Source: a virus. Taken from it: a stretch of 41,778 bases of DNA. The stretch is from positions 1-41,778 of IMG/VR virus record IMGVR_UViG_3300022925_000055; one strand, 5' to 3'. Both the position numbers and the translations under genes were made by a program. The notes below the pieces were generated by a model. That model did not search any database. It saw nothing but the letters and a program-made list of their open reading frames with translations, and was not told the DNA's origin. Shown one piece after another: positions 1-27,395 of this stretch. Position 1 is the stretch's first letter. Every line of letters starts with the position of its first letter.

Positions 1-140
1 GTTACAGTAGTCCAGCGAGGCTGACCATTGACATCAAGACGAACACGGAATGTTCCGTTCTTGTTCTCAACAATCTCCTGAACAATGCCAGTTACGCCTG
101 ACTTTGCGGTTGTGAACTGCTGTCCAACTATTGCGTTCAT
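1..140 (-). CDS. Small phage protein of unknown function, 3' end cut by window edge
   Basis: The ATG at 140 is preceded by GAAAGGAAG, a variant of the ribosome-site leader shared by the early genes here. The visible 46 codons begin MNAIVGQQFTTAKSGVTGIV and continue with alternating charged and hydrophobic residues (VQEIVENKNGTFRVRLDV), suggesting a small beta-rich fold. No family is recognised. It has its own TTGACA promoter and a leader of about 80 nt with three hairpins, so it is probably a separately regulated unit. Confidence 0.75.
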   Translation of the reverse strand, partial: MNAIVGQQFTTAKSGVTGIVQEIVENKNGTFRVRLDVNGQPRWTTV

Positions 141-153
141 TATGCTTCCTTTC

Positions 154-224
154 ACCTAGATTTCTTGACTAGGTTTTTCCGTTGTGGCGAGCCAGCCACT
201 TTTGTTATCAACTTTTGTTGATAA
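154..224 (-). promoter_or_regulatory. Structured 5' leader with three hairpins
   Basis: Three inverted repeats lie between the -10 and the ATG at 140. The first is TTATCAAC/GTTGATAA with a 4-nt loop (205-224). The second is GTGGC/GCCAC (184-199). The third is ACCTAG/CTAGGT (154-174), which directly abuts the ribosome site at 145-153. The last could affect ribosome access. No riboswitch class is recognised. Confidence 0.5.
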
Positions 225-228
225 GTCT

Positions 229-257
229 ATTGTCCCAGAAAAATGCTTGTTTGTCAA
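229..257 (-). promoter_or_regulatory. Sigma70-like promoter (TTGACA-17-GACAAT)
   Basis: On the minus strand TTGACA (257-252) and GACAAT (234-229) are 17 bp apart. The promoter drives the gene starting at 140. Its -35 overlaps the stop codon of the upstream gene, and a direct-repeat site lies 9 bp upstream. Confidence 0.75.
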
Positions 258-814
258 GCTGCTTTTGATAACGAATGTATAACAGCCTGGATACTTTCGT
301 CATCCATTCCAAATCTCTTTAGGTAACCTTCGACACCTAGTTCCTTAGCCTCGTCAAAGGTAAGGGTGACAATGATACCATTATACTTAGATGTGTATGT
401 CTTATTATCTAAATTGACTTCATACACGCCCTCACAAAACAGGTCGTCATTCTCAAACTCAATGTCCAGATACAAAGGGACTAGCGTTGTAGCATTAGCA
501 ATTAGATACAGGATTTCTGCCCCAGTATCTCTAGTTAGACTAGGATACTTCTCACCATAAGCCTTGCCACTCTCAAAGGTCATCCAACCCACATCGTGCC
601 CATCCTCAAATGGCTTAGCGTATTCTCTCCTCTGCTCTTCAGTTGGGTAGAAGATAAGCTTGAGATTAGCCTCAAGACTTGCCATTACATCATCTTTGGT
701 AACAGCAAAGAACCCAGTCAGGCCCTGCCCAGATGGATAGCCATCCCATTGCCCATACTGTGCGACAACAACTTCGCCATCCTTGATTACCTTAGTTAGA
801 TTTCTAGTTCCCAT
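254..814 (-). CDS. Conserved phage protein of unknown function (MGTRNLT family)
   Basis: This is a 186-aa soluble protein. The N-terminal pattern MGTRNLTKVIKDGEVVVAQY followed by GQWDGYPSGQG resembles a family often seen as a hypothetical protein in phages. I know of no assigned function. There are no membrane segments. The ATG at 814 has the ribosome-site leader GAAAGGAAAG upstream, and a class-A promoter (839-863) provides the transcript. The 3' end carries the -35 and a regulatory repeat for the next gene, so regulatory DNA is embedded in its coding sequence. Confidence 0.85.
   Translation of the reverse strand: MGTRNLTKVIKDGEVVVAQYGQWDGYPSGQGLTGFFAVTKDDVMASLEANLKLIFYPTEEQRREYAKPFEDGHDVGWMTFESGKAYGEKYPSLTRDTGAEILYLIANATTLVPLYLDIEFENDDLFCEGVYEVNLDNKTYTSKYNGIIVTLTFDEAKELGVEGYLKRFGMDDESIQAVIHSLSKAA
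267..283 (-). promoter_or_regulatory. Direct-repeat regulatory site, copy 1
   Basis: Reads GTTATACATTCGTTATC on the minus strand: two half-sites 11 bp apart, 9 bp upstream of the TTGACA at 257-252. Copies at 3620, 4135 and 5941 have the same orientation and nearly the same distance to a TTGACA. Confidence 0.6.
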
Positions 815-838
815 ACTTTCCTTTCATCTTGTAGTTAC

Positions 839-863
839 ACTATAGCATTACCCACCGACATTT
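839..863 (-). promoter_or_regulatory. Class-A promoter for the gene at 814
   Basis: The minus strand carries AATGTCGG, then TGC-TATAGT as an extended -10. The same combination (ATGTCRG box about 10 bp before a TGn element) recurs at 1612, 2185, 2884 and 3151, with looser copies at 3905 and 4338. Confidence 0.65.
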
Positions 864-874
864 TAGCGGGGTAT

Positions 875-910
875 CGTAAACCTTTCGTAACATGTTATCA
901 TTTTGTTACC
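875..910. promoter_or_regulatory. Pair of opposed direct-repeat sites
   Basis: Minus-strand GTTACGAAAGGTTTACG (891-875) and plus-strand GTTATCATTTTGTTACC (894-910) lie 2 bp apart. They are 31-66 bp upstream of the -10 at 844-839. Both show two GTTAY-like half-sites with an 11-bp period. Confidence 0.55.
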
Positions 911-1145
911 TGGCGTGATCGGGCCACGCCTGTGGCCAGTTTTACGTCATGGCCAGGACGGCACAGGTCCGCAGAAAGGATAAAGCGGACCTCTTCGTTA
1001 TATGCCCCTATGCATATACATCTATTGATTCTTACGTGCAGATGGATGGCCTACCCTGATAGCGTAGCAGGGAGCACAAACATTCACCGTCTCAAATTCA
1101 AAAAGGTTACGTGTCAACCTGTTGCAATCAAAACAGTTATACGTG
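911..1145 (-). other. Hairpin-rich stretch without a gene
   Basis: No convincing gene lies here. It has several inverted repeats: GGCGTG/CACGCC near 913-931, TGGCCA repeats near 934-957, a strong 8-bp hairpin at 965-992, and CCCTG/CAGGG near 1058-1076. It follows the gene ending at 1146, so it is probably a structured 3' untranslated region or terminator zone. Confidence 0.45.
965..992 (-). ncRNA. Hairpin with a loop complementary to the shared ribosome-site leader
   Basis: Perfect 8-bp arms AGGTCCGC/GCGGACCT enclose a 12-nt loop. On the minus strand the loop is TTTATCCTTTCT, the exact complement of the AGAAAGGATAAA that precedes the ATG at 2858 and, with small changes, most early genes. It could be a cis or trans antisense element. 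It could also be a displaced leader copy inside a terminator. No dedicated promoter is obvious. Confidence 0.4.
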
Positions 1146-1433
1146 TTATAAGTCTTCTTCATCATACTCCTCATCTAGCTCTACCCAGAAGTCTAGGTGG
1201 TGCTGTTCAATAATTGCGTGGGTAGGTGCAACAGTTAGTCCTTGGTATCCTACGCCCTCAGGAAGTGATACATTCTTCATCCAGTCACCTGCATTAGCAT
1301 TCTCAATAGCCTCAATGCATACTGGGACCATACTAACTGGAACTGGGGGGAAGTGGTTAGAAGTTAGGTGCCAAGAAATAGCACTCTCAATCTCCATTAG
1401 TTCTGCCATCTCTGCTGCTTGAATGCTACCCAT
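1146..1433 (-). CDS. Conserved small acidic phage protein
   Basis: This 95-aa protein has the central motif HFPPVPVSMVPVCIEAI and a very acidic C-terminus (WVELDEEYDEEDL). The Pro-rich motif looks like one seen in actinophage hypothetical proteins, but the function is unknown. The ATG at 1433 lies inside the end of the preceding gene (8-bp overlap), so the two are probably translationally coupled and share the leaderless transcript that starts near 1605. Confidence 0.8.
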   Translation of the reverse strand: MGSIQAAEMAELMEIESAISWHLTSNHFPPVPVSMVPVCIEAIENANAGDWMKNVSLPEGVGYQGLTVAPTHAIIEQHHLDFWVELDEEYDEEDL

Positions 1434-1605
1434 TATCTCTACTTTCTCTAATTGCCTTATTCTTGTTTGACTGGCGTGTGCCTTTATACTGCTTAGGGGT
1501 TACGACTAAGTGAGGTGCCTTTAGCATTTCACGAAACAGCGACTGAGACTCTGCTTTACGCCTAGCCTCATTCGCCATTCCTAGTTTCTTAGCCTTTTTC
1601 TTCAT
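1426..1605 (-). CDS. Basic 59-aa protein, leaderless
   Basis: The protein begins MKKKAKKLGMANEARRKAES and is Lys/Arg-rich throughout, as expected of a nucleic-acid-binding or ribosome-associated peptide. This is inferred from composition only. The ATG at 1605 is 6 nt after the TATAGT -10, with no ribosome site between, so the message would begin at or next to the start codon. It overlaps the next gene by 8 bp. Confidence 0.7.
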   Translation of the reverse strand: MKKKAKKLGMANEARRKAESQSLFREMLKAPHLVVTPKQYKGTRQSNKNKAIRESRDNG

Positions 1606-1611
1606 AGTTTC

Positions 1612-1635
1612 ACTATAGCATAGGGGTCTGACATT
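1612..1635 (-). promoter_or_regulatory. Class-A promoter, leaderless output
   Basis: The minus strand shows ATGTCAG, CCCC and TGC-TATAGT, followed 6 nt later by the ATG at 1605. The box overlaps the stop codon of the gene at 1634-2155. Confidence 0.7.
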
Positions 1636-2155
1636 ATAGTGCAGAACCTCTGACGATAATCCAAATCAGTGCCTGCATAGTTCTAGGGGTAGTGCCATAG
1701 ATTTTGGCAACCTTAGTTACAGCCCTAGCCATTTCCTTATACTGAGACTGGGTAGGTGTTTTCTTCTCAATACCTAGTGCACGCAACATCCAAACATCTA
1801 TCACAACTGCGTTCTCATCACCTGCAATAGCTCTAGCGAAAGAGTTAGTCTTTTGCCCATTTAGTGCGTCAAAGCCAAGTTTGATAGACTTCTTAGCCAT
1901 TGCCAAGTTGTTAGGCAACCCAACAACCTTCTGACCTAGGGAGAAAGCTACAGCCTTTTCAACATTGTTTGTCCAACGCTCTCTAGGTGAGAATGAAGAG
2001 ACAACACTTGCCCCAACTTCTAAGTCTGCGTCTAGGTTTCTAGCAACCTCGTGGGCAACACGCTCTGCGTCAAGATACCACTTGCTAGCCTGCTCGATTT
2101 GTCCATAAGTAGCCTTAGCCGCAACCTGGGTGAATAGCTCTACATAGTTTTCCAT
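1634..2155 (-). CDS. Possible helix-hairpin-helix (HhH-GPD-like) protein
   Basis: This 173-aa helical protein contains SPRERWTNNVEKA (about residues 55-67), NSFARAIAGDENAVVIDVWM (about 104-123) and a C-terminal helix with TTPRTMQALIWIIVRG. The order (SPxxRWxxN, then GD..VxID.W..RA, then a QAxxWIxxR end) resembles a family of phage hypothetical proteins related to HhH-GPD DNA glycosylases. Here the Asp of VID would sit near the glycosylase catalytic position. Enzymatic activity is not shown. The ATG at 2155 is preceded by GAAAGGATAAATAA. Confidence 0.6.
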   Translation of the reverse strand: MENYVELFTQVAAKATYGQIEQASKWYLDAERVAHEVARNLDADLEVGASVVSSFSPRERWTNNVEKAVAFSLGQKVVGLPNNLAMAKKSIKLGFDALNGQKTNSFARAIAGDENAVVIDVWMLRALGIEKKTPTQSQYKEMARAVTKVAKIYGTTPRTMQALIWIIVRGSAL

Positions 2156-2184
2156 TTATTTATCCTTTCGACTTGTAAGAAAAT

Positions 2185-2208
2185 ACTAACACACATCACC
2201 GACATTTT
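2185..2208 (-). promoter_or_regulatory. Class-A promoter for the gene at 2155
   Basis: AAATGTCGG is followed by TGT-TAGTAT on the minus strand. This is the variant -10 of the class and is similar to the copy at 3151. The leader then runs to GAAAGGATAA. Confidence 0.55.
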
Positions 2209-2217
2209 GTGGCGTTT

Positions 2218-2234
2218 CGTAAACGTTTCGTAAA
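2218..2234 (-). promoter_or_regulatory. Direct-repeat site upstream of a class-A promoter
   Basis: The minus strand reads TTTACGAAACGTTTACG: two TTTACG half-sites 11 bp apart, just upstream of the ATGTCGG box. It is comparable to 875-891 and 3276-3291. Confidence 0.5.
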
Positions 2235-2249
2235 TTACTTCCTGGGGCT

Positions 2250-2344
2250 GGCCCGTGTGATCGGGCCGCCAATATTCCCCCAACGGAATGAAAGGATAAG
2301 AAACTTTCCGAAGGGGGAATAGACTAGTCGCTTGGTTAGACTAG
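2250..2344 (-). ncRNA. 3' hairpin cluster, including a second anti-leader loop
   Basis: This directly follows the four-gene operon ending at 2341. The three hairpins are CTAGTC/GACTAG (2324-2344, over the stop codon), a two-part stem ATTCCCCC/GGGGGAAT with inner CGGAA/TTCCG (2274-2320), and GGCCCG/CGGGCC (2250-2267). The middle loop contains TTATCCTTTC on the minus strand, complementary to the GAAAGGATAA leaders. There is no U-tract after the stems, so a simple intrinsic terminator is uncertain. Confidence 0.45.
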
Positions 2345-2472
2345 AATGGCGGGATAAAGCTATCCCTCTTGGTGGAGTAGTAACGATACTTAGTTACGTT
2401 ATAGGTAACGGCAATCGCAACCCCAACCAAAATCAAATCAACTAGCAAGTTGAAACCATTGTAGAAAATCAT
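2341..2472 (-). CDS. 43-aa membrane peptide
   Basis: MIFYNGFNLLVDLILVGVAI starts a single membrane helix (about residues 8-24), followed by a basic, Tyr-rich tail (KYRYYSTKRD). It has a very strong ribosome site, AGAGGAGG, within the end of the upstream gene. The ATG overlaps the upstream stop as ATGA. It is the last gene of a four-gene overlapping operon. The function is unknown. Confidence 0.65.
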   Translation of the reverse strand: MIFYNGFNLLVDLILVGVAIAVTYNVTKYRYYSTKRDSFIPPF

Positions 2473-2573
2473 TCTGCCTCCTCTGTTGTGAATAGACTAG
2501 CAGAATTGTCTGCCAACATCAAGTCTATTTTGAAAATTAGTTCTTCTAGTTCTGCGGTAGATAGTTTAGACAT
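2469..2573 (-). CDS. 34-aa acidic peptide
   Basis: MSKLSTAELEELIFKIDLML and an acidic end (TTEEAE) form a likely amphipathic helix. It overlaps the upstream gene by 8 bp and the downstream membrane peptide by 4 bp. Its last codons encode the strong AGAGGAGG ribosome site for the next gene. The function is unknown, but the tight packing supports it being a real gene. Confidence 0.6.
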   Translation of the reverse strand: MSKLSTAELEELIFKIDLMLADNSASLFTTEEAE

Positions 2574-2715
2574 ACTCTAGAAACTCCTCTGGAAAGTCTT
2601 CGCCCAAGTAGTCCTGGGCATCTTTGATTGGCATTAGCCCGTCATACTCGTTGCAGTGAGGGCATACATAGTCATTGACAATGTTTAGGCAGTATACGCA
2701 TACTGATTCACTCAT
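2566..2715 (-). CDS. 49-aa zinc-ribbon peptide
   Basis: There are two Cys pairs, CVYC near the N-terminus and CPHC about 12 residues later, spaced as in a small zinc ribbon. An acidic C-terminus (DFPEEFLEYV) follows. The start overlaps the upstream gene's stop as ATGA, indicating coupled translation. The role is unknown; phage zinc ribbons often bind nucleic acids or host proteins. Confidence 0.7.
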   Translation of the reverse strand: MSESVCVYCLNIVNDYVCPHCNEYDGLMPIKDAQDYLGEDFPEEFLEYV

Positions 2716-2858
2716 TTTACCAACCCCAATCTGACTTGCTCTAGAGCGTAGTCCATTAGAACCATTTCCATTTCTGTTAGGTCACGACCAATGACAGCCT
2801 CTGCACTAGCAATGACTTTTTCACTTGTTACATTCTTGACGATTACTGACTGATTCAT
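2712..2858 (-). CDS. 48-aa protein, first gene of a four-gene operon
   Basis: MNQSVIVKNVTSEKVIASAE, then a helical segment ending RLGLVK. The ATG at 2858 follows AGAAAGGATAAA, the best copy of the common leader. Transcription would come from the class-A promoter at 2884-2908. The function is unknown. Confidence 0.7.
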   Translation of the reverse strand: MNQSVIVKNVTSEKVIASAEAVIGRDLTEMEMVLMDYALEQVRLGLVK

Positions 2859-2883
2859 TTTTATCCTTTCTGATTATACGATT

Positions 2884-2908
2884 ACTCTAGCATAGGGGTC
2901 TGACATTT
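2884..2908 (-). promoter_or_regulatory. Class-A promoter for the four-gene operon
   Basis: ATGTCAG-ACCCC-TATGC-TAGAGT on the minus strand is nearly identical to the copy at 1612. It overlaps the stop codon of the gene at 2907. Confidence 0.65.
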
Positions 2909-3122
2909 ATGAGACCTCATCTCTCTCGAAACGCTCTTTCATCTCAAGGAACCTGACCCAAGACTTGGAACCCTCTGCTATAGTGATTCCCATTAGGGCA
3001 ATAACCCTACCAACAACACGAGGGTCCATAGTGGAGACACCAGTCTCGCCGTCCCTCTTCTCTACGAACGCTACCTGGGTAGCCTCAAACTCTGCGATTA
3101 CATCCGCTACTGATTTTGACAT
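2907..3122 (-). CDS. 71-aa helical protein of unknown function
   Basis: MSKSVADVIAEFEATQVAFV leads into two predicted helices and a charged C-terminus (MKERFERDEVS). There is no Cys motif and no membrane segment. The ATG at 3122 is preceded by AGAAAGGATGACAA. It forms a single-gene unit from the class-A promoter at 3151-3173. Confidence 0.75.
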   Translation of the reverse strand: MSKSVADVIAEFEATQVAFVEKRDGETGVSTMDPRVVGRVIALMGITIAEGSKSWVRFLEMKERFERDEVS

Positions 3123-3150
3123 TTGTCATCCTTTCTTGTTATGTGTATAC

Positions 3151-3173
3151 ACTAACACAGGGGTCTGACATTT
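3151..3173 (-). promoter_or_regulatory. Class-A promoter for the gene at 3122
   Basis: ATGTCAG-ACCCC-TGTGT-TAGTGT on the minus strand. The box and spacing match the copies at 1612 and 2884, with a variant -10. Confidence 0.6.
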
Positions 3174-3214
3174 TAGGGGTGACACGCCGTGTTTTCTTAT
3201 TCTTTTTTATCTTT

Positions 3215-3291
3215 GTTATCATTCTGTTACATTAGAACAAGTGTTCGAATCAACTGTGGGGTTTCGACCGTCTCTCGTAACACTTCGTAAA
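3215..3291. promoter_or_regulatory. Two direct-repeat sites upstream of the 3151 promoter
   Basis: Plus-strand GTTATCATTCTGTTACA (3215-3231) and minus-strand TTTACGAAGTGTTACG (3291-3276; period 10 instead of 11). The mix of one site per orientation parallels 875-910. Confidence 0.5.
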
Positions 3292-3294
3292 TTC

Positions 3295-3377
3295 GGATCT
3301 GGGGGGCCCGTGTGCCCGTATACGGTACACACCAATTCCTGGGTGTCAAGGCGACACGCCGAGGAATTTGAAAAAGC
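3295..3377 (-). terminator. Hairpin cluster after the zinc-ribbon gene
   Basis: AATTCCT/AGGAATT (3334-3340 with 3362-3368) encloses GGCG/CGCC (3350-3360), and a GC-rich inverted stretch lies around 3301-3330. It immediately follows the gene ending at 3378. It probably ends transcription or protects the 3' end, but no clear U-tract follows. Confidence 0.4.
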
Positions 3378-3536
3378 CTAGTTTATTTCACCATAGGCTT
3401 CCCAGCAATACTGGCAACCCTGTTCTGGGTAACCACTTTCAGTAACCAACACCTGTGGGGTGTAGTTGGAGCAGATGTCGCAGAATGCGAACTCTCCTGC
3501 TAGGAACTGAACTGAAATGTTTGAAACTGAAATCAT
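3378..3536 (-). CDS. 52-aa zinc-ribbon peptide
   Basis: MISVSNISVQFLAGEFAFCD precedes CDIC and, about 20 residues later, CQYC: two Cys pairs of a zinc ribbon. The ATG at 3536 has AGAAAGGATAAA upstream. The opening MISVS resembles MISIS of the gene at 4157-4297, hinting that the 5' ends of cassettes have been shared. The function is unknown. Confidence 0.7.
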   Translation of the reverse strand: MISVSNISVQFLAGEFAFCDICSNYTPQVLVTESGYPEQGCQYCWEAYGEIN

Positions 3537-3581
3537 TTTTTTATCCTTTCTATGAAATCTTGTTTTCTTTTATCTAGTATT

Positions 3582-3636
3582 ATTCAATCACACTTTGGTG
3601 ACTTTGTCAAGTCTTTTTTGGTAACAAAATGGTAAC
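3582..3636 (-). promoter_or_regulatory. TTGACA promoter with direct-repeat site upstream
   Basis: On the minus strand TTGACA (3610-3605) is 17 bp from TTGAAT (3587-3582). GTTACCATTTTGTTACC (3636-3620) ends 9 bp upstream of the -35. It drives the zinc-ribbon gene at 3536. The spacer AAGTCACCAAAGTGTGA is nearly repeated in the promoter at 4098-4126. Confidence 0.6.
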
Positions 3637-3641
3637 AAATT

Positions 3642-3716
3642 TTAGACTGACATTGTCCTGATTATGAACAGCGAGACCAGGAACCAGGCACTGAAGATTA
3701 GTAGGTCAATTAGCAT
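3642..3716 (-). CDS. 24-aa membrane micropeptide
   Basis: MLIDLLIFSAWFLVSLFIIR followed by TMSV: essentially one membrane helix with a positive end. Its ATG overlaps the stop of the upstream 55-aa gene as TAATG, which supports coupled translation. It is too short for family assignment. Confidence 0.5.
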   Translation of the reverse strand: MLIDLLIFSAWFLVSLFIIRTMSV

Positions 3717-3883
3717 TAGTAGACCTGCTTAGTGCCAAGGGCATTAGCCAAACCAATTAGGCGGTTTATGTATTCCGCAGTTTCATCTGACATAGTGTCA
3801 GGGTTGAGAGTGAACAGGAAAGCCAATTCTTGTTCTACATCTTGTAGAGATAGAGTGTTTAGAACTTTGTATCTTGAATCCAT
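3716..3883 (-). CDS. 55-aa protein of unknown function
   Basis: Starts MDSRYKVLNTLSLQDVEQEL. The upstream in-frame ATG at 3913 is rejected because it precedes the -10 and the AGAAAGGATAA ribosome site, which fits the ATG at 3883. The protein is helical and acidic. It is followed by the overlapping membrane micropeptide. Confidence 0.65.
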   Translation of the reverse strand: MDSRYKVLNTLSLQDVEQELAFLFTLNPDTMSDETAEYINRLIGLANALGTKQVY

Positions 3884-3904
3884 TTGATTATCCTTTCTAA
3901 GATT

Positions 3905-3930
3905 ATTATACAACTAGGGCCAGACTTTTT
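3905..3930 (-). promoter_or_regulatory. Class-A-like promoter for the gene at 3883
   Basis: The minus strand reads AAAAAGTCTGGCCCTA, then TATAAT (3910-3905). The upstream box is a diverged form of ATGTCAGACCCC, but the -10 is a perfect consensus. Confidence 0.55.
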
Positions 3931-4069
3931 AGTCTAGGTTACCACTAGTCTCAACCATTACAACAACTAGACCTTGAGACTCTAGTCTCTCAGTTAGTTC
4001 CTCAATGGAAACGGTAGCAGGGTAGAGAGCCTGCTTTAGAATTCCATCTGAAAAAGTTACTTTGTACAT
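3929..4069 (-). CDS. 46-aa protein of unknown function
   Basis: MYKVTFSDGILKQALYPATV then an acidic helix and LVVVMVETSGNLD: a compact alpha/beta peptide. The ATG at 4069 is preceded by AGAAAGGATATCAA. It is expressed from the TTGACA promoter at 4098-4126. Confidence 0.6.
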   Translation of the reverse strand: MYKVTFSDGILKQALYPATVSIEELTERLESQGLVVVMVETSGNLD

Positions 4070-4097
4070 TTGATATCCTTTCTTTGTATCTATGTAT

Positions 4098-4151
4098 AGT
4101 CAATCACACTTTGTTGAATTTGTCAAGTGTTTTTGATAACAAATTGGTAAC
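4098..4151 (-). promoter_or_regulatory. TTGACA promoter with direct-repeat site upstream
   Basis: TTGACA (4126-4121) with GTTACCAATTTGTTATC (4151-4135) ending 8 bp upstream. The -10 is unclear: TTGACT at 17 bp, or CTATAC a little further on. The shared spacer core CAAAGTGTGATTGA with 3582-3610 suggests duplication of the whole promoter. Confidence 0.5.
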
Positions 4152-4156
4152 AAATT

Positions 4157-4297
4157 CTAGTAGATGAAATCCAGAATCTGGAATCCATCTGACCTCAGCC
4201 AAGCAACTGCTGACTGGAAGTCCGAAACTGGAACGGTGATTTCCATCACCTCGCCAGCCTTTGAAGCGACGATTATGTTTTCTGAAATTGAAATCAT
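4157..4297 (-). CDS. 46-aa protein of unknown function
   Basis: MISISENIIVASKAGEVMEI then a helix and QILDFIY. The ATG at 4297 is preceded by AGAAAGGATAGAA. It is a single-gene cassette. The first five residues resemble the gene at 3378-3536, but the rest does not. Confidence 0.6.
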   Translation of the reverse strand: MISISENIIVASKAGEVMEITVPVSDFQSAVAWLRSDGFQILDFIY

Positions 4298-4337
4298 TTT
4301 CTATCCTTTCTATGATTTATCTTTATTTCTTTATACT

Positions 4338-4366
4338 ATTATAGTAGGGGAGGGGGGTGACATTTT
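4338..4366 (-). promoter_or_regulatory. Class-A-like promoter for the gene at 4297
   Basis: AAAATGTCACCCCCC precedes a TATAAT (4343-4338) on the minus strand. The ATGTCA box is kept and the C-tract is longer. Confidence 0.55.
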
Positions 4367-4396
4367 AGCCCTGTTTGACGGCGTGTCGGAATAGTT

Positions 4397-4413
4397 GTTA
4401 CCTTTTTGTTATA
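4397..4413 (+). promoter_or_regulatory. Direct-repeat regulatory site
   Basis: Reads GTTACCTTTTTGTTATA with an 11-bp period, 53 bp upstream of the -10 at 4343-4338. Orientation and distance resemble the sites at 894 and 3215. The following bases to about 4520 hold no supported gene. Confidence 0.55.
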
Positions 4414-4524
4414 AAGGGCGTAGGGGTGTGCGGACTAATCCTGGTTGTATTTTTTCTCAAAACATGCATCGTACATCATTACAAAATATTCAGATTTTTG
4501 GTAAAAATGAAATTTTTCAGATTC

Positions 4525-4533
4525 TGGTATAAT
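4525..4533 (+). promoter_or_regulatory. Extended -10 promoter (TGGTATAAT)
   Basis: A perfect extended -10, 5 nt before the ATG at 4539. It points against the surrounding minus-strand genes. Confidence 0.6.
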
Positions 4534-4538
4534 TAGAT

Positions 4539-4604
4539 ATGAAATGCAATCGATGCGGATGCAAAGTTGAAAATGGTAGTTGTTGCTGTGATCACGGAGT
4601 CTAA
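4539..4604 (+). CDS. 21-aa cysteine-rich micropeptide, leaderless
   Basis: MKCNRCGCKVENGSCCCDHG then V. Six Cys and one His in 21 residues suggest a zinc knuckle or metallothionein-like metal binding. The start codon is 5 nt after TGGTATAAT with no ribosome site, matching the other leaderless genes. The stop overlaps the stop of the convergent HTH gene by 3 bp. It is too short to prove by composition alone, but the Cys pattern and promoter placement argue for it. Confidence 0.5.
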   Translation: MKCNRCGCKVENGSCCCDHGV

Positions 4605-4768
4605 TCTTCGTCAATAACAACAGGTATCATAGATGTAAACGGTATGTTAAACTTTTCGAGGTAAATCTCGACAAGCTTATACGAAACGCCTAGGTCCTTA
4701 GAGATATCTCTAGAGGTCTTTCCTGACTCTATAGCGTTTCTTAAGTAATTTTCATCTTGATGTAGCAT
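4601..4768 (-). CDS. 55-aa helix-turn-helix protein, possible regulator
   Basis: MLHQDENYLRNAIESGKTSR then DISKDLGVSYKLVEIYLEKF. The stretch SGKTSRDISKDLGVSYKLVE has the form of a helix-turn-helix (invariant-like G in the turn, hydrophobic spacing on both helices). DNA binding is likely; the target is unknown. It overlaps the upstream membrane peptide gene by 17 bp. It lies in the middle of the direct-repeat sites, so it is a candidate to bind them, but nothing in the sequence proves that. Confidence 0.65.
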   Translation of the reverse strand: MLHQDENYLRNAIESGKTSRDISKDLGVSYKLVEIYLEKFNIPFTSMIPVVIDED

Positions 4769-4859
4769 AATTTCCTAATATATGTATAACTCCCATAAAA
4801 AGACCTATCCAACTAGCAATAATTATGGAGGTATACAACAAAATCCATAGTTTCTTCAT
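4752..4859 (-). CDS. 35-aa membrane peptide
   Basis: MKKLWILLYTSIIIASWIGL continues as a hydrophobic helix, with a positive N-terminus and SR end. It sits first in a two-gene unit with the overlapping HTH gene. The leader of about 24 nt has no strong ribosome site. The promoter is TGATATAAT at 4898-4890. Confidence 0.5.
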   Translation of the reverse strand: MKKLWILLYTSIIIASWIGLFMGVIHILGNYATSR

Positions 4860-4889
4860 CTTGATAGCTCACTTGTCTGGGGACATTAC

Positions 4890-4933
4890 ATTATATCATA
4901 TCTTCGGAGGTATAATTATAACGAAATGGTAAC
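4890..4933 (-). promoter_or_regulatory. Extended -10 promoter plus direct-repeat site
   Basis: TGATATAAT (4898-4890) on the minus strand. GTTACCATTTCGTTATA (4933-4917) covers the place of a -35, so a bound protein could block or recruit polymerase. It drives the membrane peptide and HTH genes. If the HTH protein binds the site, this would be autoregulation (inference). Confidence 0.55.
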
Positions 4934-4935
4934 GA

Positions 4936-5130
4936 TCACTGATGCAAATTAATCACACCATGCTCGTATAGAGCATCAAACAACATACTATTAACTCTAT
5001 CTAGTTCAGGCTTCATAGCCTCTAGTGTCATTACAATCTGCTGTTCTGGGACTCCTTGTTGTTCTCCCATTTCTCTATTCATATCTAATACTACCTTAGT
5101 CATAACATCGATAGCTTCTTCTCGTCTCAT
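4936..5130 (-). CDS. 64-aa helical protein of unknown function
   Basis: MRREEAIDVMTKVVLDMNRE then a Gln/Glu-rich helical region and a C-terminus ending GVINLHQ. The ATG at 5130 lies 1 nt after the stop of the upstream zinc-ribbon gene. The ribosome site GGAAGGAA is inside that gene's last codons, so translation is probably coupled. There are no motifs. Confidence 0.7.
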   Translation of the reverse strand: MRREEAIDVMTKVVLDMNREMGEQQGVPEQQIVMTLEAMKPELDRVNSMLFDALYEHGVINLHQ

Positions 5131-5131
5131 T

Positions 5132-5335
5132 TTATTCCTTCCAATATCCCATAGGACATTTTGCTTGTTCCAAGGTTGTCTTCATAGTCATAAAACACCC
5201 ACAAAGTTTGCATCGTTGCGATCCTGGTAAAAAGAACTCACAGCTTCTGCATGTTTCTAGACGTTCTTTCTGGATATCTTTCTGGGTCCTAGGTTGTTTA
5301 GGATCAAAGAGATCAAAGAAATTTACGTCACTCAT
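5132..5335 (-). CDS. 67-aa zinc-ribbon protein, leaderless
   Basis: The ATG at 5335 (MSDVNFFDLFDPKQPRTQKD) is preferred over an upstream in-frame ATG because a TGGTAGAAT -10 lies 7 nt before it. The upstream start would be ahead of the promoter. The Cys pattern CRSC...CKLCGC...C (residues about 30-60) with RLETC and a final GYWKE matches a small zinc-ribbon family widespread in phages, of unknown function. Confidence 0.75.
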   Translation of the reverse strand: MSDVNFFDLFDPKQPRTQKDIQKERLETCRSCEFFLPGSQRCKLCGCFMTMKTTLEQAKCPMGYWKE

Positions 5336-5342
5336 ATAGTAT

Positions 5343-5388
5343 ATTCTACCATAGATCAGCGATACCATTCTGTTACCGTTTTGCTATA
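5343..5388. promoter_or_regulatory. Minus-strand extended -10 with tandem overlapping direct-repeat sites
   Basis: TGGTAGAAT (5351-5343) drives the leaderless gene at 5335. Just upstream, plus-strand GATACCATTCTGTTACC (5361-5377) and GTTACCGTTTTGCTATA (5372-5388) share their middle half-site: three half-sites in a row at 11-bp spacing over the -35 region. Confidence 0.55.
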
Positions 5389-5435
5389 TTCGCTGTTATT
5401 TTGGTAGGGGTACTTCTCGCCGCCGATTTTAAAAG

Positions 5436-5457
5436 CGAACTTTAAAAACGAACTTTA
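5436..5457 (+). repeat. Short direct repeat CGAACTTTA
   Basis: Two exact copies (5436-5444 and 5449-5457) 13 bp apart, flanked by two CGCCGA-like words. No gene lies in 5389-5494. Meaning unknown; it may be a further protein-binding site between divergent promoters. Confidence 0.35.
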
Positions 5458-5469
5458 CCGCCGAATTTA

Positions 5470-5500
5470 TTTATCATTTTGTTATAAACACCCTTATAAT
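5470..5500 (+). promoter_or_regulatory. Direct-repeat site and TATAAT promoter for the gene at 5510
   Basis: TTTATCATTTTGTTATA (5470-5486) lies 8 bp before TATAAT (5495-5500), occupying the -35 region. The ATG follows 9 nt after the -10 with no ribosome site. Confidence 0.6.
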
Positions 5501-5509
5501 TAAAGGGTT

Positions 5510-5806
5510 ATGACCCCACTATCGACAATAGAAACTATCCTTGCAATTTCAGTAGCGATAGGTACGCTATTTACAATGGTGGCCATGGCAATTAGATGGT
5601 TAGTCAAACATTACCTGGGAGAAATTAAGCAAGAGCTTAAGCCTAACGGCGGAGGAAGCATAAAGGATCAGATTAACCGTCTAGAAGTTAGAACCGAAAG
5701 AAACGAAAACCTAAACACAGAAAGCTTTAGAAGAATAGAAAAAGTAGAACGCAAAATCGATGATCTTTATGAAAAGTTTATAGACTATATTGCTAATAAG
5801 AAGTAA
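5510..5806 (+). CDS. Membrane protein with coiled coil, possible holin
   Basis: This 98-aa protein has an N-terminal membrane helix (ILAISVAIGTLFTMVAMAI, about residues 10-28). A linker KPNGGGSIKDQINRLE follows, then a charged coiled coil to the Lys-rich end. The single-helix-plus-coiled-coil plan and the PNGG-S-D linker recall small actinophage membrane proteins often listed as holin-like. No lysin gene is adjacent, so lysis function is a guess. It is leaderless and expressed from 5495-5500. Confidence 0.75.
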   Translation: MTPLSTIETILAISVAIGTLFTMVAMAIRWLVKHYLGEIKQELKPNGGGSIKDQINRLEVRTERNENLNTESFRRIEKVERKIDDLYEKFIDYIANKK

Positions 5807-5989
5807 TTACTATATATTATATATAAATAATAAATATAAGTAAATTCACTAAACTCTATTAGAGTTAGTTTGAATAATATATATTAATAATCAACCCTTC
5901 TATATAATACACTAAAAATATCTTTGTCAAGTCTTTTTTTAATAACTTTTATATAACAATTATAAAGTTCTCTATCTCTTGATGCTTTT
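5807..5989. other. AT-rich spacer without a gene
   Basis: Almost purely A/T runs (ATATATTATATATAAATAAT and similar). It holds an inverted repeat AACTCTA/TAGAGTT (5852-5866) that could end the 5510-5806 transcript weakly, since no U-tract follows. A minus-strand promoter sits within it. Easily melted DNA here could serve an origin or the divergent promoter zone; neither is shown. Confidence 0.45.
5902..5957 (-). promoter_or_regulatory. TTGACA promoter with direct-repeat site, no sense gene downstream
   Basis: TTGACA (5930-5925) is 17 bp from TTATAT (5907-5902), with GTTATATAAAAGTTATT (5957-5941) 10 bp upstream. The layout equals that at 229-283 and 3582-3636. A transcript would run antisense to the membrane protein gene at 5510-5806. 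Confidence 0.5.
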
Positions 5990-6017
5990 GTTATCATTTC
6001 GTTACATATGATATAAT
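5990..6017 (+). promoter_or_regulatory. Direct-repeat site over an extended -10 promoter
   Basis: GTTATCATTTCGTTACA (5990-6006) ends 2 bp before the TGATATAAT at 6009-6017. The site covers the -35 position. The transcript would start near 6024 and meet a terminator at once. Confidence 0.55.
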
Positions 6018-6023
6018 TATATA

Positions 6024-6080
6024 AAGCTGGTACCTAGGATGTCTCTCATACCCACTACTAGGTACCAGTTTTTAGTTTTT
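6024..6080 (+). terminator. Strong intrinsic terminator ending a transcript of about 55 nt
   Basis: Perfect 11-bp arms CTGGTACCTAG/CTAGGTACCAG (6027-6037 and 6058-6068), a 20-nt loop, then TTTTTAGTTTTT. The promoter at 6009-6017 starts just before it, so the unit may make a stable small RNA. It also insulates the late genes from upstream transcription. Confidence 0.75.
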
Positions 6081-6082
6081 GG

Positions 6083-6091
6083 TGGTATAAT
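6083..6091 (+). promoter_or_regulatory. Extended -10 promoter (TGGTATAAT) opening the fibre region
   Basis: Perfect extended -10, 9 nt before the ATG at 6101, with no TTGACA upstream. The upstream terminator is only a few bases away. Confidence 0.7.
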
Positions 6092-6100
6092 AAAAGTACT

Positions 6101-6487
6101 ATGACATCATCTTGTGGACCAGAAGCCTTTGGGGCTAATCCCGCCAACATTAAATGGAATGTTGTGCGAGGCGACACGTCTGAGCTACGTGTAGAGTTTT
6201 ACGAAAACGACGAAGCCACTGCTTGGGATACCAGCAGTTGGGAATATGCTGCGTCGGCCTATGATTACAAAAATGGCATCACAGATGAATTAGAAGTTGT
6301 CGCTGGCGACGGATATGTAACAATTACCGCAACAGCAGATATTACATCGCTATGGGGAGAAGGATATTCTCGCACCGTAGCAGAATTGGCTTTCGATCTT
6401 CAAGTAACAATTGACAGAGACACGGTGTGGACACCAGTCGTGGGGACTATATCAGTTATTGGAGACGTTACAGGAGGTAGTTTATAA
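6101..6487 (+). CDS. RGDT-motif beta-sandwich tail protein, copy 1
   Basis: This 128-aa protein contains [17 protein letters not shown] (about residues 18-34), followed by beta-strand-like segments and the end [14 protein letters not shown]. Copies at 7794 and 12726 share the RGDT strand near the N-terminus and a V-V-D/E-V-T-like end. The fold resembles the Ig-like/BppU-type domains used as baseplate or fibre adaptors, an inference from motif and context. The gene is leaderless, and the stop overlaps the next start as TAATG. Confidence 0.7.
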
Positions 6488-7050
6488 TGCCAACAGTTAA
6501 GATTGTACCGTTTCCAGGCGTACCTGGACCACAGGGCCCACGTGGACTACAGGGCATCCAGGGAGAGACTGGACTAACAGGACCAATGGGTCCACAGGGT
6601 GAGCAAGGCCCACAGGGAGAGCAGGGAATTCAGGGTGAGTCTGGAGTTTCAGAAATCACTTCGTATATTGTAGGTGGAGGAACAGATGGAACTCAGCCAA
6701 CATTCAGTGGAGACCCACTATTTGCAGGCGAAGCAATTGTTATTGGAGACCTTGTGCACTTTACAGTTAATGTAGATTTTGATAACATCACAAACTTTGG
6801 AACGGGGCAGTATTATGTCACACTACCATTCAATGCAAGAGATGAATACTACTTCAGAAGTGGTCACCTTTATGATGACTCAAGTAGCAAGAGCTATGGG
6901 ATTTCTGGCAATGTAGCAGCAGGCTCAAGCCAGCTTAACCTTTACTACACGGCTAGCAATGGTCAGGACGAGACCTTTACTTCTACTACACCAGTGTCCC
7001 TAACAGTAGAAGATAATTTTCACATTAGCGGAACGTATCTGAAATCCTAA
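6487..7050 (+). CDS. Collagen-like tail fibre
   Basis: In this 187-aa protein, residues about 10-52 are Gly-X-Y repeats ([16 protein letters not shown] and so on), a trimeric collagen-like stalk. A C-terminal beta-rich head of about 130 residues ends [17 protein letters not shown] and may be the receptor-contacting or trimerising domain. The start codon overlaps the stop of the RGDT protein (TAATG), implying co-production of adaptor and fibre. Confidence 0.85.
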
Positions 7051-7071: not shown

Positions 7072-7776
7072 ATGGAACAGGACTTCCCAAAAATTCGTAA
7101 AAAGGCTTCTCCGTATGAAAAAGAAGCTTCCTCGCAACCACTACTAGATGGTCCCCAATATATTGCTGTGCCAGGGCCAGAAGGCCCACGTGGTCCACAG
7201 GGGGAGAGGGGTCCACAGGGTATTCCTGGTAAAGATGGTCCAGAAGGTCCTAGGGGAGAGAGAGGTCTTCCAGGAAAAGATGGAGAAAGTTATTTTCCAA
7301 CTTACAAACAAAAGACTGGATGGGCAAGGTATACTGCCAAGAAGCAAGAGCAGATATCTTTGGGTGCCAAGAAAGGTAGAGACGGCTGGGTATCTTTTGA
7401 CCTAGACGCATCTGGAAAAGATACTACAGAACTATACCTACCAGAAAAGTCTGTAGCTCTTTACAACAAAGAAGCAGATAGAATTAATCTCAAACACCTC
7501 AAGCTAGGAACAAGACTACAAATCACTTACGACTTTGATTTTGTGACCCTAGGTTCCAATACTGAGCTATGGCTACGCTCTGTATTCCCAAATAGCGAAA
7601 GAGCATATACATCATTTGTAGGTCTTTTCAAGTATGAATATGAGTATCGCCTATCTGTAACACACTTCCTTACCTTGGAAGAAGATTCTGAAAAAACACA
7701 CGGTATTTTGCCACAAGCAAGATCAGATATGAACAGCCTCTTCACACCTCTAAGTATTACAATTTCTGTCAGCTAA
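7072..7776 (+). CDS. Second collagen-like tail fibre
   Basis: In this 234-aa protein, a charged N-terminus ([20 protein letters not shown]) is followed by Gly-X-Y repeats at about residues 34-72 ([16 protein letters not shown]). The C-terminal domain of about 160 residues has predicted beta strands and ends LSITISVS. It differs from the head of the first collagen-like fibre, so the two may recognise different ligands. Leaderless start. Confidence 0.8.
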
Positions 7777-21783: not shown

Positions 21784-24700
21784 ATGACACAGCCAGCCAA
21801 CCTTTATGCGGAGAAGGTATTTTCAGAACACCCGCTAGCTCTTTGGTCACTGGATGATTCTTCAGAATTCCTCTCTCTGATATCACAACAAAACAAAAAG
21901 TTAGTAAACTGGAATGTTTCTGGCGGTACGGCAACAACAGCTCAGCTTTCTGGATTAAGTGCACCAGTGGTAAGTCCAACAACAGAGATTGACTTCTCTG
22001 GCACAAGCCAAGTTATAGCTATTAGCCCAGACGTAATATCAACACAAGATTTAGATTCAGATAGAGGAAGTTTTAATATATCCTTTTACCTATATTCTCA
22101 GAATTCAGCCATAGACTCTGTTGACGTAGGATACGAGTATACTGATGGAACAACAACACAGGTTCTAGAAAATTTTGAGATTGCTGGTACTGGTGTTTGG
22201 GCATTTGTATCAAAAACATTTGATATTCCTGATACCTCATCAAACTTACGAATAGTTATCAAGGTAAACGCCAGCTCTGACGGTAACTATAGCTGCTATA
22301 TAAATGCAATTTCTATGGCACAGTGGTCAGAGAACTATGCTACAGCAAGCTCTGGTGTTGCTTCTAACAGCCTTTACTCTTTGCATGGAGCAAGTATTGG
22401 CATCACAAATGCCCCAGCAGTTAGGGCAGCAGCATATGGTCTTGGAGAAAACCCAGGATACTACTTAGCATCAGAAAATAAAATGTATGCATACAATGCT
22501 GGGTTTCCTATTGTGTATGGCTCATCCAATGCAACAAAGATTATTGAAAACCCTAACGGACCATCACTAATATTGCCAGGTCTAGGCCTAATGAATGAGT
22601 CTGGAAGATATAAAGATCTCACACTAGAATTTTGGATGAGGGTATCAACAAGCTCCTATACTGCTACTAGGATTATGGGTCCAGTAGCTTCTACAGACGG
22701 GCTATACGTAGACGGCCAATTCCTGACATTTAAGCTAGGCAATCAAACGATGTCCCACTTTGTTGGAACCTGGGGCAGACCAATGTTGGTCCACCTTAGA
22801 TTTATTGAAAACTCTATTAGCATGCTAATTAATGGAGAAGAGGTTGTGTCTATGATTGTAGATACTGCCACTATAGATTTGCCAGCCAGAACAAACGAAA
22901 CACTGTCCTCTCTTTTCTATGGCTTTGATCAAGACTGGGTAGGATTCTATGGCAGTGATGACTTCCTTTACTTCGATATAGAGTCTCCAGCCCTATACTC
23001 TTATTCTGTGCCATCTGTTGTGGCAAAGCGTAGATTTATCTACGGTCAAGGTGTAGAGTATCCAGAAAATAGCAACAGCTCCATATCGGGTTCAGCAGCT
23101 ATCATTGACTATCGTAATTCCGAGTATGCAAACAACTACTTATACCCAGATCTTGGATTATGGAATCAGGGAATATCAGAGAATATATCCACTACTTCTG
23201 ACAGTATTAGTGCACCAGATTACGAGCTTCCATCTGTATTTCTTAAAAACTCAAATGAGTCAGGCTGGCTAGAGGCTTGCAGAGTTGCAAATACAGAGAA
23301 CAGGCCATACTTTAGCTTTGGGCTTGACGATGAGACAGACCCTGGAGGCTACCTTCTATTTAACAGCATTGACCTGCTGCAAAAAGATCTTAAGGCTGCC
23401 TACATTGTTTTTAGGTCAGACTCAACTAGCCAGCAAACACTATTCTTAATTGAGGACAAAGTGACTGGAAACTACTTCGAAGTTTCTGTTAGCGACTCAC
23501 AGCTTATCTACCAGCTATCATACAACTCAGAAATAACCACTGTGACTAAGGAAGACCAGCACATTGTGGGTATTAGTGCTGCAGCTGGAATTGACATAGA
23601 TAGGTTTGCAGAAACATACGGCTCAAACATATCTTCCTTCTTCGGTGCCAAGAGTAGACTAAGGATGTATGTTGGAGGCAAGCCAGGATACAATAATACT
23701 TTTACTGGTAGGATATATAAGGTTGGGCTCTCTACAGCAAGAAACCTTAGAAAGGTTAGCGAGTTCTTTACTGATGACGGAACATCTGTAAATATTCAAA
23801 ATCTTTTTGAGGACTACCTTGCAGCAGATCCATCGGGAATCTATGGTGGAGACTACGACACTACAAGCACAGACTTTTTAGATGGTGGATTTCCAGACTC
23901 ATTCTTAATTAGTAGCACTCTATATGGCCACACAGCTACATATACCCTATTCCCTAAACTATACTTAGGAGCATTTATTCTAGATGTTGCAGTAGACTCT
24001 GCTTGGCAAGACTACCTGCCACTAAAATACTTTGCCAAAAATGTTTCAGATATTGAGGGCAATACAGAGTATGCACTAGATTACTTACAGATAAATCTAG
24101 ACAGCCCAACTGTCTATGCTCAGGATGGAGATAGCTACAACACAAGCAATGCATCTGTAAAGACATACGTTTCATTCCAGTATCTTGCCGATGGTGCCAA
24201 CGTCCTTTCTGAAAACATAGCCAACTCCTATCCTGCACCACTAAGCAGGTCTGTAGAGCCAGGAGATGAATGGACTACTTCTAAGTATGAGATTGTGGAT
24301 GGCTCTATTGTCTTTCCACCTAAGAATGTAAGCTTTGATGACATTGCAGTAGTTATACATATTGATATGAATATTGCAGGAGTGCAGAGCGGAAACATTA
24401 GGATAAGTTCTTTGCAAATAGCCTCTCAGGTGCAAGAGGAAGCATCGCTGACTCCAATTAACACTAAGCTAGGTCAGGATATTTACCCTTACATAAAGAA
24501 GGGTATTTACTATGACTACTCAGCACCAAACCCAGTTCAAATCTATAAAAACAGCAGCCCATATCTATATATCTGTGATGATACAGGAATTCAGCTAGTA
24601 GGGGATACCTCAGCAGATAGAGCAATTCGTTTCCCAATTAATCCACAGAGATCTGCCACATATAGAGTTGGTGGAGTGCAGATGCTAATGAGGTATCACG

Positions 24701-27343: not shown

Positions 27344-27395
27344 TGTTATAATTGTATTACATTTTTGTAACTTTTACACAAAAGGGGTATATAAT
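27344..27395 (+). promoter_or_regulatory. Tandem promoters before the protease gene
   Basis: TGTTATAAT (27344-27352) and TATAAT (27390-27395) lie 37 bp apart. The second is 8 nt before the ATG at 27404, so it gives a leaderless message. The first gives a leader of about 45 nt without a ribosome site. Confidence 0.6.

Follow-up and report, generated by a model that had tools for sequence, protein, structure and literature searches.

Some phages carry, at their promoters, boxes for a regulatory protein of their host. In phages of Alphaproteobacteria, both the binding of CtrA to such boxes and the resulting regulation have been shown by experiment (Mascolo et al., 2022; PMC9437464). CtrA, a response regulator of the host, has a DNA-binding domain of the OmpR-like type; its half-sites (TTAA-N7-TTAA) are direct repeats with an 11-bp step, and its boxes crowd into a small part of the genome, prefer promoters and arose independently in several phage lineages (PMC9437464). 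Cyanophage promoters carry Pho boxes, the boxes of the PhoB-type regulator of the host PhoBR system, at a limited set of genes linked to phosphate stress (PMC10976474). Our study concerns a recurrent 17-bp direct repeat, hereafter called the box, with two GTTAY half-sites 11 bp apart, in the left 6.1 kb of a 41,778-base fragment of a viral genome (IMG/VR virus record IMGVR_UViG_3300022925_000055); this whole fragment is referred to as the window. The boxes share with those of CtrA the direct half-sites, the 11-bp step, the crowding and the preference for promoters, and we infer that their regulator is likewise a host protein with an OmpR-like domain. They differ in that the setting is very probably Actinobacteria, the box resembles the MtrA class, several early promoters carry it and the -35 boxes downstream are in helical phase with it; the cyanophage case differs in its gene set, in its link to phosphate stress, and in box and host. 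On our best reading, what is new here would be the extension of this logic of host-regulator boxes, known for CtrA and PhoB, to Actinobacteria with an MtrA-class box.

The MtrA box of Streptomyces, Corynebacterium and Mycobacterium is a direct repeat of the GTnAC type (PMC5650626, PMC6265350, PMC13189361), and that of Streptomyces has the same 17-bp length and 5-bp spacer as the box described here, GTnACC-n5-GTnACn (PMC13189361, PMC5650626). In the excerpts of the cited papers on which we draw, the published MtrA boxes are chromosomal; the phage version is stricter, with T at position 3 and T or C at position 5. The GlnR box of S. venezuelae, GTnAC-n6-GTnAC (PMC10704036), is also alike, and the GAAAC half of the S. 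coelicolor form is little used in the phages. We propose that the sites are operators for a host-encoded response regulator of the OmpR/PhoB family, most likely MtrA, and put the probability of this at roughly 0.55. Among the literature matches listed, we found no earlier report of MtrA boxes in phages.

Boxes in the window and its relatives

The original prediction, made from the letters of the window, placed a motif GTTAYC-N5-GTTAYM at eleven positions between 267 and 6006. All eleven carry it, exactly or with one or two mismatches, the weakest being 5361-5388, and the motif itself is confirmed. Allowing up to two mismatches gives 30 matches in the window where 16.6 would be expected; seven are exact and all of these lie between 894 and 6006 (at 894, 3215, 3620, 4135, 4397, 4917 and 5990), while the sites at 267, 5361/5372 and 5470 have one mismatch and that at 5941 has two. 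The half-site is best written GTTAY, the sixth base being loose and the spacer weakly conserved; in this form, GTTAY-N6-GTTAY, it occurs nine times in the window, always within the left 6.1 kb. A matrix trained on 287 sites of other phages, with the loci that share sequence with the window (L075, L078 and L079) left out, gave ten sites of at least 14 bits in positions 1-6100 and none in the remaining 35.7 kb (6101-41778), compared with Markov-shuffle means of 0.03 (60 shuffles) and 0.2 (10 shuffles), respectively. The original remark that no box was noticed past 6006 holds at this threshold, apart from one marginal, lone site just below it (27355-27371, minus strand, 13.9 bits). This site, flanked by the genes for the portal and the head protease, may be due to chance. 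The looser TTACG forms also listed were not borne out: that at 875 scores 4.5 bits, the repeat at 2214 scores 1.2 and that at 3276 is outside the best 40. Because the boxes cluster, are scarce in shuffled sequence and are present in relatives, they are neither equally dense in late or shuffled DNA nor lacking in conservation.

Eight of the eleven sites touch no open reading frame (ORF) in the mechanical ORF list of the window; the site at 267 is inside the 3' end of ORF 254-814, that at 4397 is inside a 53-aa ORF (4375-4536) and the one at 5361 runs into the opening bases of ORF 5132-5368. The placement of the boxes relative to promoters had been called systematic, and this stands for six of them. 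Four are followed after 8-10 bp by a TTGACA in the same orientation, in each case on the minus strand: GTTATACATTCGTTATC (267-283) is followed after 9 bp by TTGACA (257-252) and then by a -10-like GACAAT (234-229), in a leftward promoter that points to the window's left edge; GTTACCATTTTGTTACC (3620-3636) is followed after 9 bp by TTGACA (3610-3605) and lies, reading leftward, 84 bp before ORF 3378-3536; GTTACCAATTTGTTATC (4135-4151) is 8 bp from the TTGACA (4126-4121) of a leftward promoter; and GTTATATAAAAGTTATT (5941-5957) is 10 bp from its TTGACA (5930-5925). Two boxes on the plus strand are just upstream of a TATAAT, namely TTTATCATTTTGTTATA (5470-5486, 15.1 bits), with TATAAT directly downstream (5495-5500) and then gene 5510-5806, and GTTATCATTTCGTTACA (5990-6006), with TATAAT at 6012-6017 and then gene 6101-6487. 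The remaining sites are looser in their placement, with no good promoter at a fixed distance. Two of these are on the plus strand, in the orientation opposite to the leftward gene whose start they precede: GTTATCATTTTGTTACC (894-910), 80 bp upstream of gene 254-814, and GTTATCATTCTGTTACA (3215-3231), 93 bp upstream of gene 2907-3122. GTTACCATTTCGTTATA (4917-4933, minus strand) is 149 bp upstream of the start of the leftward gene 4601-4768, GTTACCTTTTTGTTATA (4397-4413, plus strand) is an exact motif also seen in the matrix scan, and the region 5361-5388 (plus strand) holds three half-sites, GATACC, GTTACC and GCTATA, at 11-bp steps, which score weakly (8.5 and 11.8 bits).

Relatives of the window were retrieved through its early DUF7178 protein (71 loci), the protein encoded at 7072-7776 (3 loci) and the head protease (80 loci). 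In these loci and the window (155 sequences, with redundancy kept), direct GTTAY pairs occur 338 times at a step of 11 bp, whereas each of the other spacings between 5 and 24 accounts for 9-78 pairs; 66 of the sequences, largely from the head-protease set, have no such pair at 11 bp. Once duplicated contexts were removed from the 75 early-region sequences, 269 pairs were left at 11 bp, where ten other spacings average 15.7, and changing any single base of the half-site, the C/T position apart, reduced the excess from 17-fold to at most 3.4-fold. Ten records of 93-125 kb (G014 and G028 being covered for their first 100,000 bases) contain 85 sites of at least 14 bits, against 13 with the reversed matrix; the matrix used here includes the window sites and omits 12 loci of those genomes, with near copies of some of the genomes kept in its training set. 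Within each genome the sites are concentrated in one 20-kb segment (76 of the 85), and 55 of the 85 are intergenic, although intergenic DNA makes up 12.3% of the total, fractions that are approximate since genes were called by a simple longest-ORF procedure. This sets the boxes apart from the stoperators of cluster-A phages, where a phage repressor binds to single, asymmetric sites inside transcription units: both consist of one motif at many phage loci, but the boxes here are 11-bp direct repeats, mostly intergenic, and the stoperator protein is phage-encoded. We also looked for a gene family that would track motif-rich versus motif-poor genomes. G028 appeared poor only by the plain pattern and holds five matrix sites in one 20-kb segment, so this contrast falls away. 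The boxes thus recur in relatives, with letters that drift at look-alike, possibly orthologous promoters: those in L007, L023, L025 and L043 that resemble the promoter at window position 267 have a diverged box.

The geometry of the promoters downstream of the boxes is activator-like, as had been supposed. After removal of duplicated contexts (296 to 277 to 214 sites), 58 consensus-like promoters were found downstream of the 214 non-redundant sites, compared with 30 +/- 5 and a maximum of 41 in 50 flank shuffles that preserve base composition only. Their -35 boxes start chiefly at +24 to +27 (18 cases), +35 to +37 (11) and +45 to +47 (9), which together account for 38 of the 58, and the best period in a scan from 5 to 20 bp was 10.75 bp (Rayleigh z 15.9). 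Exact TTGAC[AT], taken with no promoter score, gives the same peaks at 25, 26, 36 and 46, none of which appears in the control set. Peaks one helical turn apart are what would be predicted for a protein that contacts RNA polymerase from a single face of the DNA. When sites were assigned to promoter classes (295 reduced to 230), a promoter at +17 to +75 was seen for 57 of the 230, and most sites have none. We do not claim a repressor class (-35 at -11, with the -10 box inside a half-site), because the half-sites and GTTATAAT themselves look like promoter hexamers.

Boxes with this geometry also occur in other phages. A query of viral contigs for a box with a TTGACA 7-10 bp behind it matched at least 119 stretches, of which 80 were taken; its background was not small, since a control with a 12-bp spacing also returned 74 stretches. 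The two sets nevertheless differ in content among the matches listed: the 79 new loci have a mean of 3.16 matrix sites (query site counted) versus 0.04 in the control, at least three sites are present in 39 of the 79 versus none of the 74, and 53 of 57 clusters have a gap of 8 or 9 bp between box and TTGACA, versus 10 of 28 in the control. At least two gene families are shared with the ten large genomes by 48 of these 79 loci. For 28 of the 80 loci we analysed the whole record, and a portal of the window's family is present in nine of them. In seven portal-negative records, covered in part or whole and some of them fragments, the number of sites ranges from 1 to 7 and that of ORFs in common with the family from 2 to 23 (G102, 23 of 119; G114, 22 of 134; G106, 10 of 76; G111, 4 of 59; G107, 3 of 56; G117, 3 of 35; G118, 2 of 39). 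From these gene contents a separate origin of the boxes appears likely in G107 and G117 and is a possibility in the other records. The portal of G107 is 50 and 47% identical to those of the cultured phages E7 and F5, whose host is Planktophila (PMC10202952), and E7, a cultured freshwater actinophage, has one site (19.8 bits). G111, with one site, has a capsid protein that shares 72.5% identity with its counterpart in phage DSL-LC01. In named Streptomyces and Rhodococcus relatives, each of nine stretches contains one or two sites of at least 12 bits, and in six of the nine a site falls within a long non-coding gap or at its edge, a test made post hoc for which the shuffle values are descriptive. 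The single MtrA-like boxes in such gaps or at their edges are at 10830 in L259, 11686 in L352, 10314 in L353, 17280 in L354, 14630 in L355 and 2710 in L262; that at 2904 in L261 (Trina) overlaps a gene end.

Candidate binding proteins

That one kind of DNA-binding protein acts at all these sites, many of them in activator-like positions, agrees with the original prediction, which had it encoded by the phage; this last part is the one we would change. A host protein is suggested by the likeness of the boxes to a host response-regulator box, the failure to find a matching domain in the phage records and the presence of boxes in phages that share few genes. The phage boxes fit the 17-bp GTnACC-n5-GTnACn form in a narrower version, with T for n and frequently T as the fifth base, and GTTACC-N5-GTTAC occurs 16 times against 0.7. 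The OmpR-type DNA-binding domain PF00486 was not found in any record of two sets of 34 and 28 virus records (62 in total, many incomplete). WhiB, in contrast, is over the cut-off in 19 of the 34 and 15 of the 28, including all ten large genomes. WhiB is a marker of actinophages (PMC10202952), and its frequency in these records makes it very probable that the hosts of the box-bearing phages are actinobacteria.

Under the MtrA proposal, an MtrA dimer would bind head-to-tail, ahead of early promoters, to two half-sites with an 11-bp step, or one turn. In this position it could touch RNA polymerase, either from 8-10 bp upstream of the TTGACA or from one or two turns further up; alternatively, it may sit near the -10 box and replace the -35 box. 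The early block of small phage genes would thereby be tied to the MtrAB state of the host, that is to its cell cycle, cell wall and osmotic state. The identity of the protein as MtrA, activation by it and this physiological meaning are what we infer from the sites and their positions.

Chromosomes of possible hosts were examined for the same boxes. A host search via prophage-like contigs gave four weak matches, one in a Nanopelagicales metagenome-assembled genome and three in other groups. Of 60 genomes sampled from the order of a Nanopelagicales metagenome-assembled genome, 48 have MtrA (NF040689) over the cut-off. Three of these genomes (G039, G063 and G073; loci of 54-57% G+C) have GTTACNNTTCCGTTAT upstream of an NlpC/P60 gene, with 14 of 17 positions identical among the copies and a common -10-like TAGCGT downstream. 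The flank upstream of GTTACNNTTCCGTTAT is also well conserved (39 of 60 positions), which indicates that the whole promoter is under constraint. A conserved palindrome resembling GTGAC-N6-TCACAG, which we take to be CRP/GlxR-like, lies up to 60 bp upstream of the NlpC/P60 box in L263, L264 and L265. Over 31 NlpC/P60 upstream regions, there are three GTTAY pairs at 11 bp and one at any other spacing from 5 to 20. RipA belongs to the NlpC/P60 class. Its promoter, PripA, is a confirmed MtrA target (PMC6265350).

Several observations weigh against MtrA, and we gather them here. By surface plasmon resonance, the MtrA half-site of S. venezuelae is much looser than the phage half-site, with only T1 and C4 invariant (PMC13189361). 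The phages use T at position 3, so that GTnACC-n5-GTnAC with a free n is enriched only 3.6-fold (29 versus 8.0), and they favour GTTAT over GTTAC. On the chromosomes, the roughly 400 bp upstream of mtrA contain no GTnAY pair at 11 bp in any of the 48 genomes, and 11 low-GC genomes of the order show no chromosome-wide excess of matches (86 versus 177 with the reversed control). No GTTAY pair at 11 bp precedes 28 of the 31 NlpC/P60 genes, and the looser GTnAY pairs before these genes show little preference for 11 bp, with 10 pairs there and 8 each at 9 and 13 bp. The other intergenic chromosomal boxes whose surroundings we inspected adjoin a DeoR/PfkB pair (L244, L245 and L246) or sugar/solute ABC transporter genes, which are not classic MtrA targets; in L247 the box has an FGGY kinase on one side and an ABC ATPase on the other, and in L251 it is between an ABC transporter operon and an RpiB gene. 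Among the cultured phages, F5 has no site, DSL-LC01 has none in 99 of its 129 kb and E7 has its single one, while the window itself has no WhiB match over the cut-off. Lastly, the phage boxes also fit the GTnAC-n6-GTnAC box of GlnR from S. venezuelae, which has the same 11-bp step (PMC10704036).

This last point leads to another host regulator of the OmpR family, chiefly the nitrogen regulator GlnR, as the protein that binds the boxes, in which case the phage would read the nutrient state of its host and not that of MtrAB. MtrA and GlnR are described as competing at nitrogen genes (PMC10704036). The S. coelicolor GlnR form, GTnAC-n6-GAAAC, is enriched 2.5-fold (12 versus 4.9). Some chromosomal matches, moreover, are near sugar/solute ABC transporter genes, which are linked to GlnR. 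We nevertheless consider GlnR quite unlikely, given that GTTAY followed by GAAAY (0.9-fold) and pairs of GAAAY (0.8-fold) show no enrichment, and that the box common to three genomes precedes a cell-wall gene of the NlpC/P60 class. Outside regulatory proteins of this kind, the boxes might be some other DNA element, for example repeats of the DnaA or replication-origin type, or might simply arise in intergenic DNA that is rich in A+T. Matches in some relatives do coincide with the DnaA-box-like GTTATCCACA, but the strict 11-bp spacing, the strict half-sites, the helical phasing to the -35 box and the scarcity of sites in shuffled and reversed controls make this explanation very improbable.

A regulator encoded by the phages, with a fold outside PF00486, is an unlikely candidate but deserves discussion. 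Lambda CII provides a mechanical analogy, as a phage-encoded activator that acts on direct repeats one turn apart. A MerR-like family, phrog_9440, is present in all ten large genomes (at 22018-22560 in G014 and in its relatives), and the MerR-like protein BldC binds direct repeats; the MerR-like label comes from the annotations of named phages, and Pfam gave no match. However, phrog_9440 also matches 127 Streptomyces phage records, the covered parts of seven such phages have no box array, and the protein was not found in the covered parts of the seven motif-bearing records outside the family, some of which are short fragments. A phage WhiB acting with a host sigma factor is the other possibility of this type, and WhiB is indeed common in box-bearing records, but it was not found in some of the motif-bearing ones, nor is it evident how WhiB would account for sites one or two turns further up. 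The candidate originally put forward, a 55-aa helix-turn-helix protein encoded at 4601-4768, is unlikely, since tblastn detects it in only 4 of 42 motif-rich loci and in none of the ten large genomes, which also counts against a phage-encoded protein more generally.

Other features of the record

Among the matches listed, the nearest named phages to the window's portal are Streptomyces phages of the Stanwilliamsviridae (46-48% identity); its head protease is likewise closest to theirs, and Rhodococcus phages are more distant. The first 8 kb gave no blastn match in the phage collection. The window phage probably infects aquatic actinobacteria. The left 6 kb consist of small, mostly leftward genes, including the DUF7178 gene (1634-2155, minus strand), which served as bait for the early-region relatives and is not claimed as a component of the switch. 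The DUF7178 protein has relatives in the mycobacteriophages Timshel and Sheen and in Gordonia and roseobacter phages, and is annotated as 'glycosylase' in some phages. Near the start of the rightward block, the genes at 6487-7050 and 7072-7776 encode collagen-like Gly-X-Y stretches; phage DSL-LC01 likewise encodes several collagen-like proteins.

The early regions contain other recurrent elements. CGGCGTGTCG occurs just before TTGACA in the window (near 4377-4386, 3181-3190 and 3351-3360), in L009 (near 7642) and in many relatives, and CGGCGTGTCG with its TTGACA is sometimes trailed by the inverse CGACACGCC; together they are perhaps the operator of another regulator. By eye, a conserved AATGTCRGACCCC between the -35 and -10 regions marks an apparent second class of promoters in the window and its relatives, with leftward examples in the window near 842-870, 1621-1640, 2893-2910 and 3161-3178. 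DnaA-box-like GTTATCCACA repeats adjoin or overlap boxes in L025, L028, L032, G023, G024, G026 and G031, and possibly represent a replication origin.

Possible consequences for actinophage infection

We tentatively suggest, as a possibility, that several actinophage lineages have each, on separate occasions, placed their early programme under the control of MtrA, an essential actinobacterial response regulator, such that the course of infection depends on the MtrAB state of the host. If so, this would be an actinobacterial counterpart of the 'lytic deferment' mediated by CtrA, operating at many early promoters at once. Actinophages that are common in metagenomes would then read a host two-component system at the start of infection, and the virus may time infection by the state of its host. 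Such a connection would provide a testable link between the cell-cycle or envelope state of the host and infection in Actinobacteria. The box followed by a phased TTGACA would, in addition, be a sequence signature for early promoters and hint at the hosts of orphan viral contigs.

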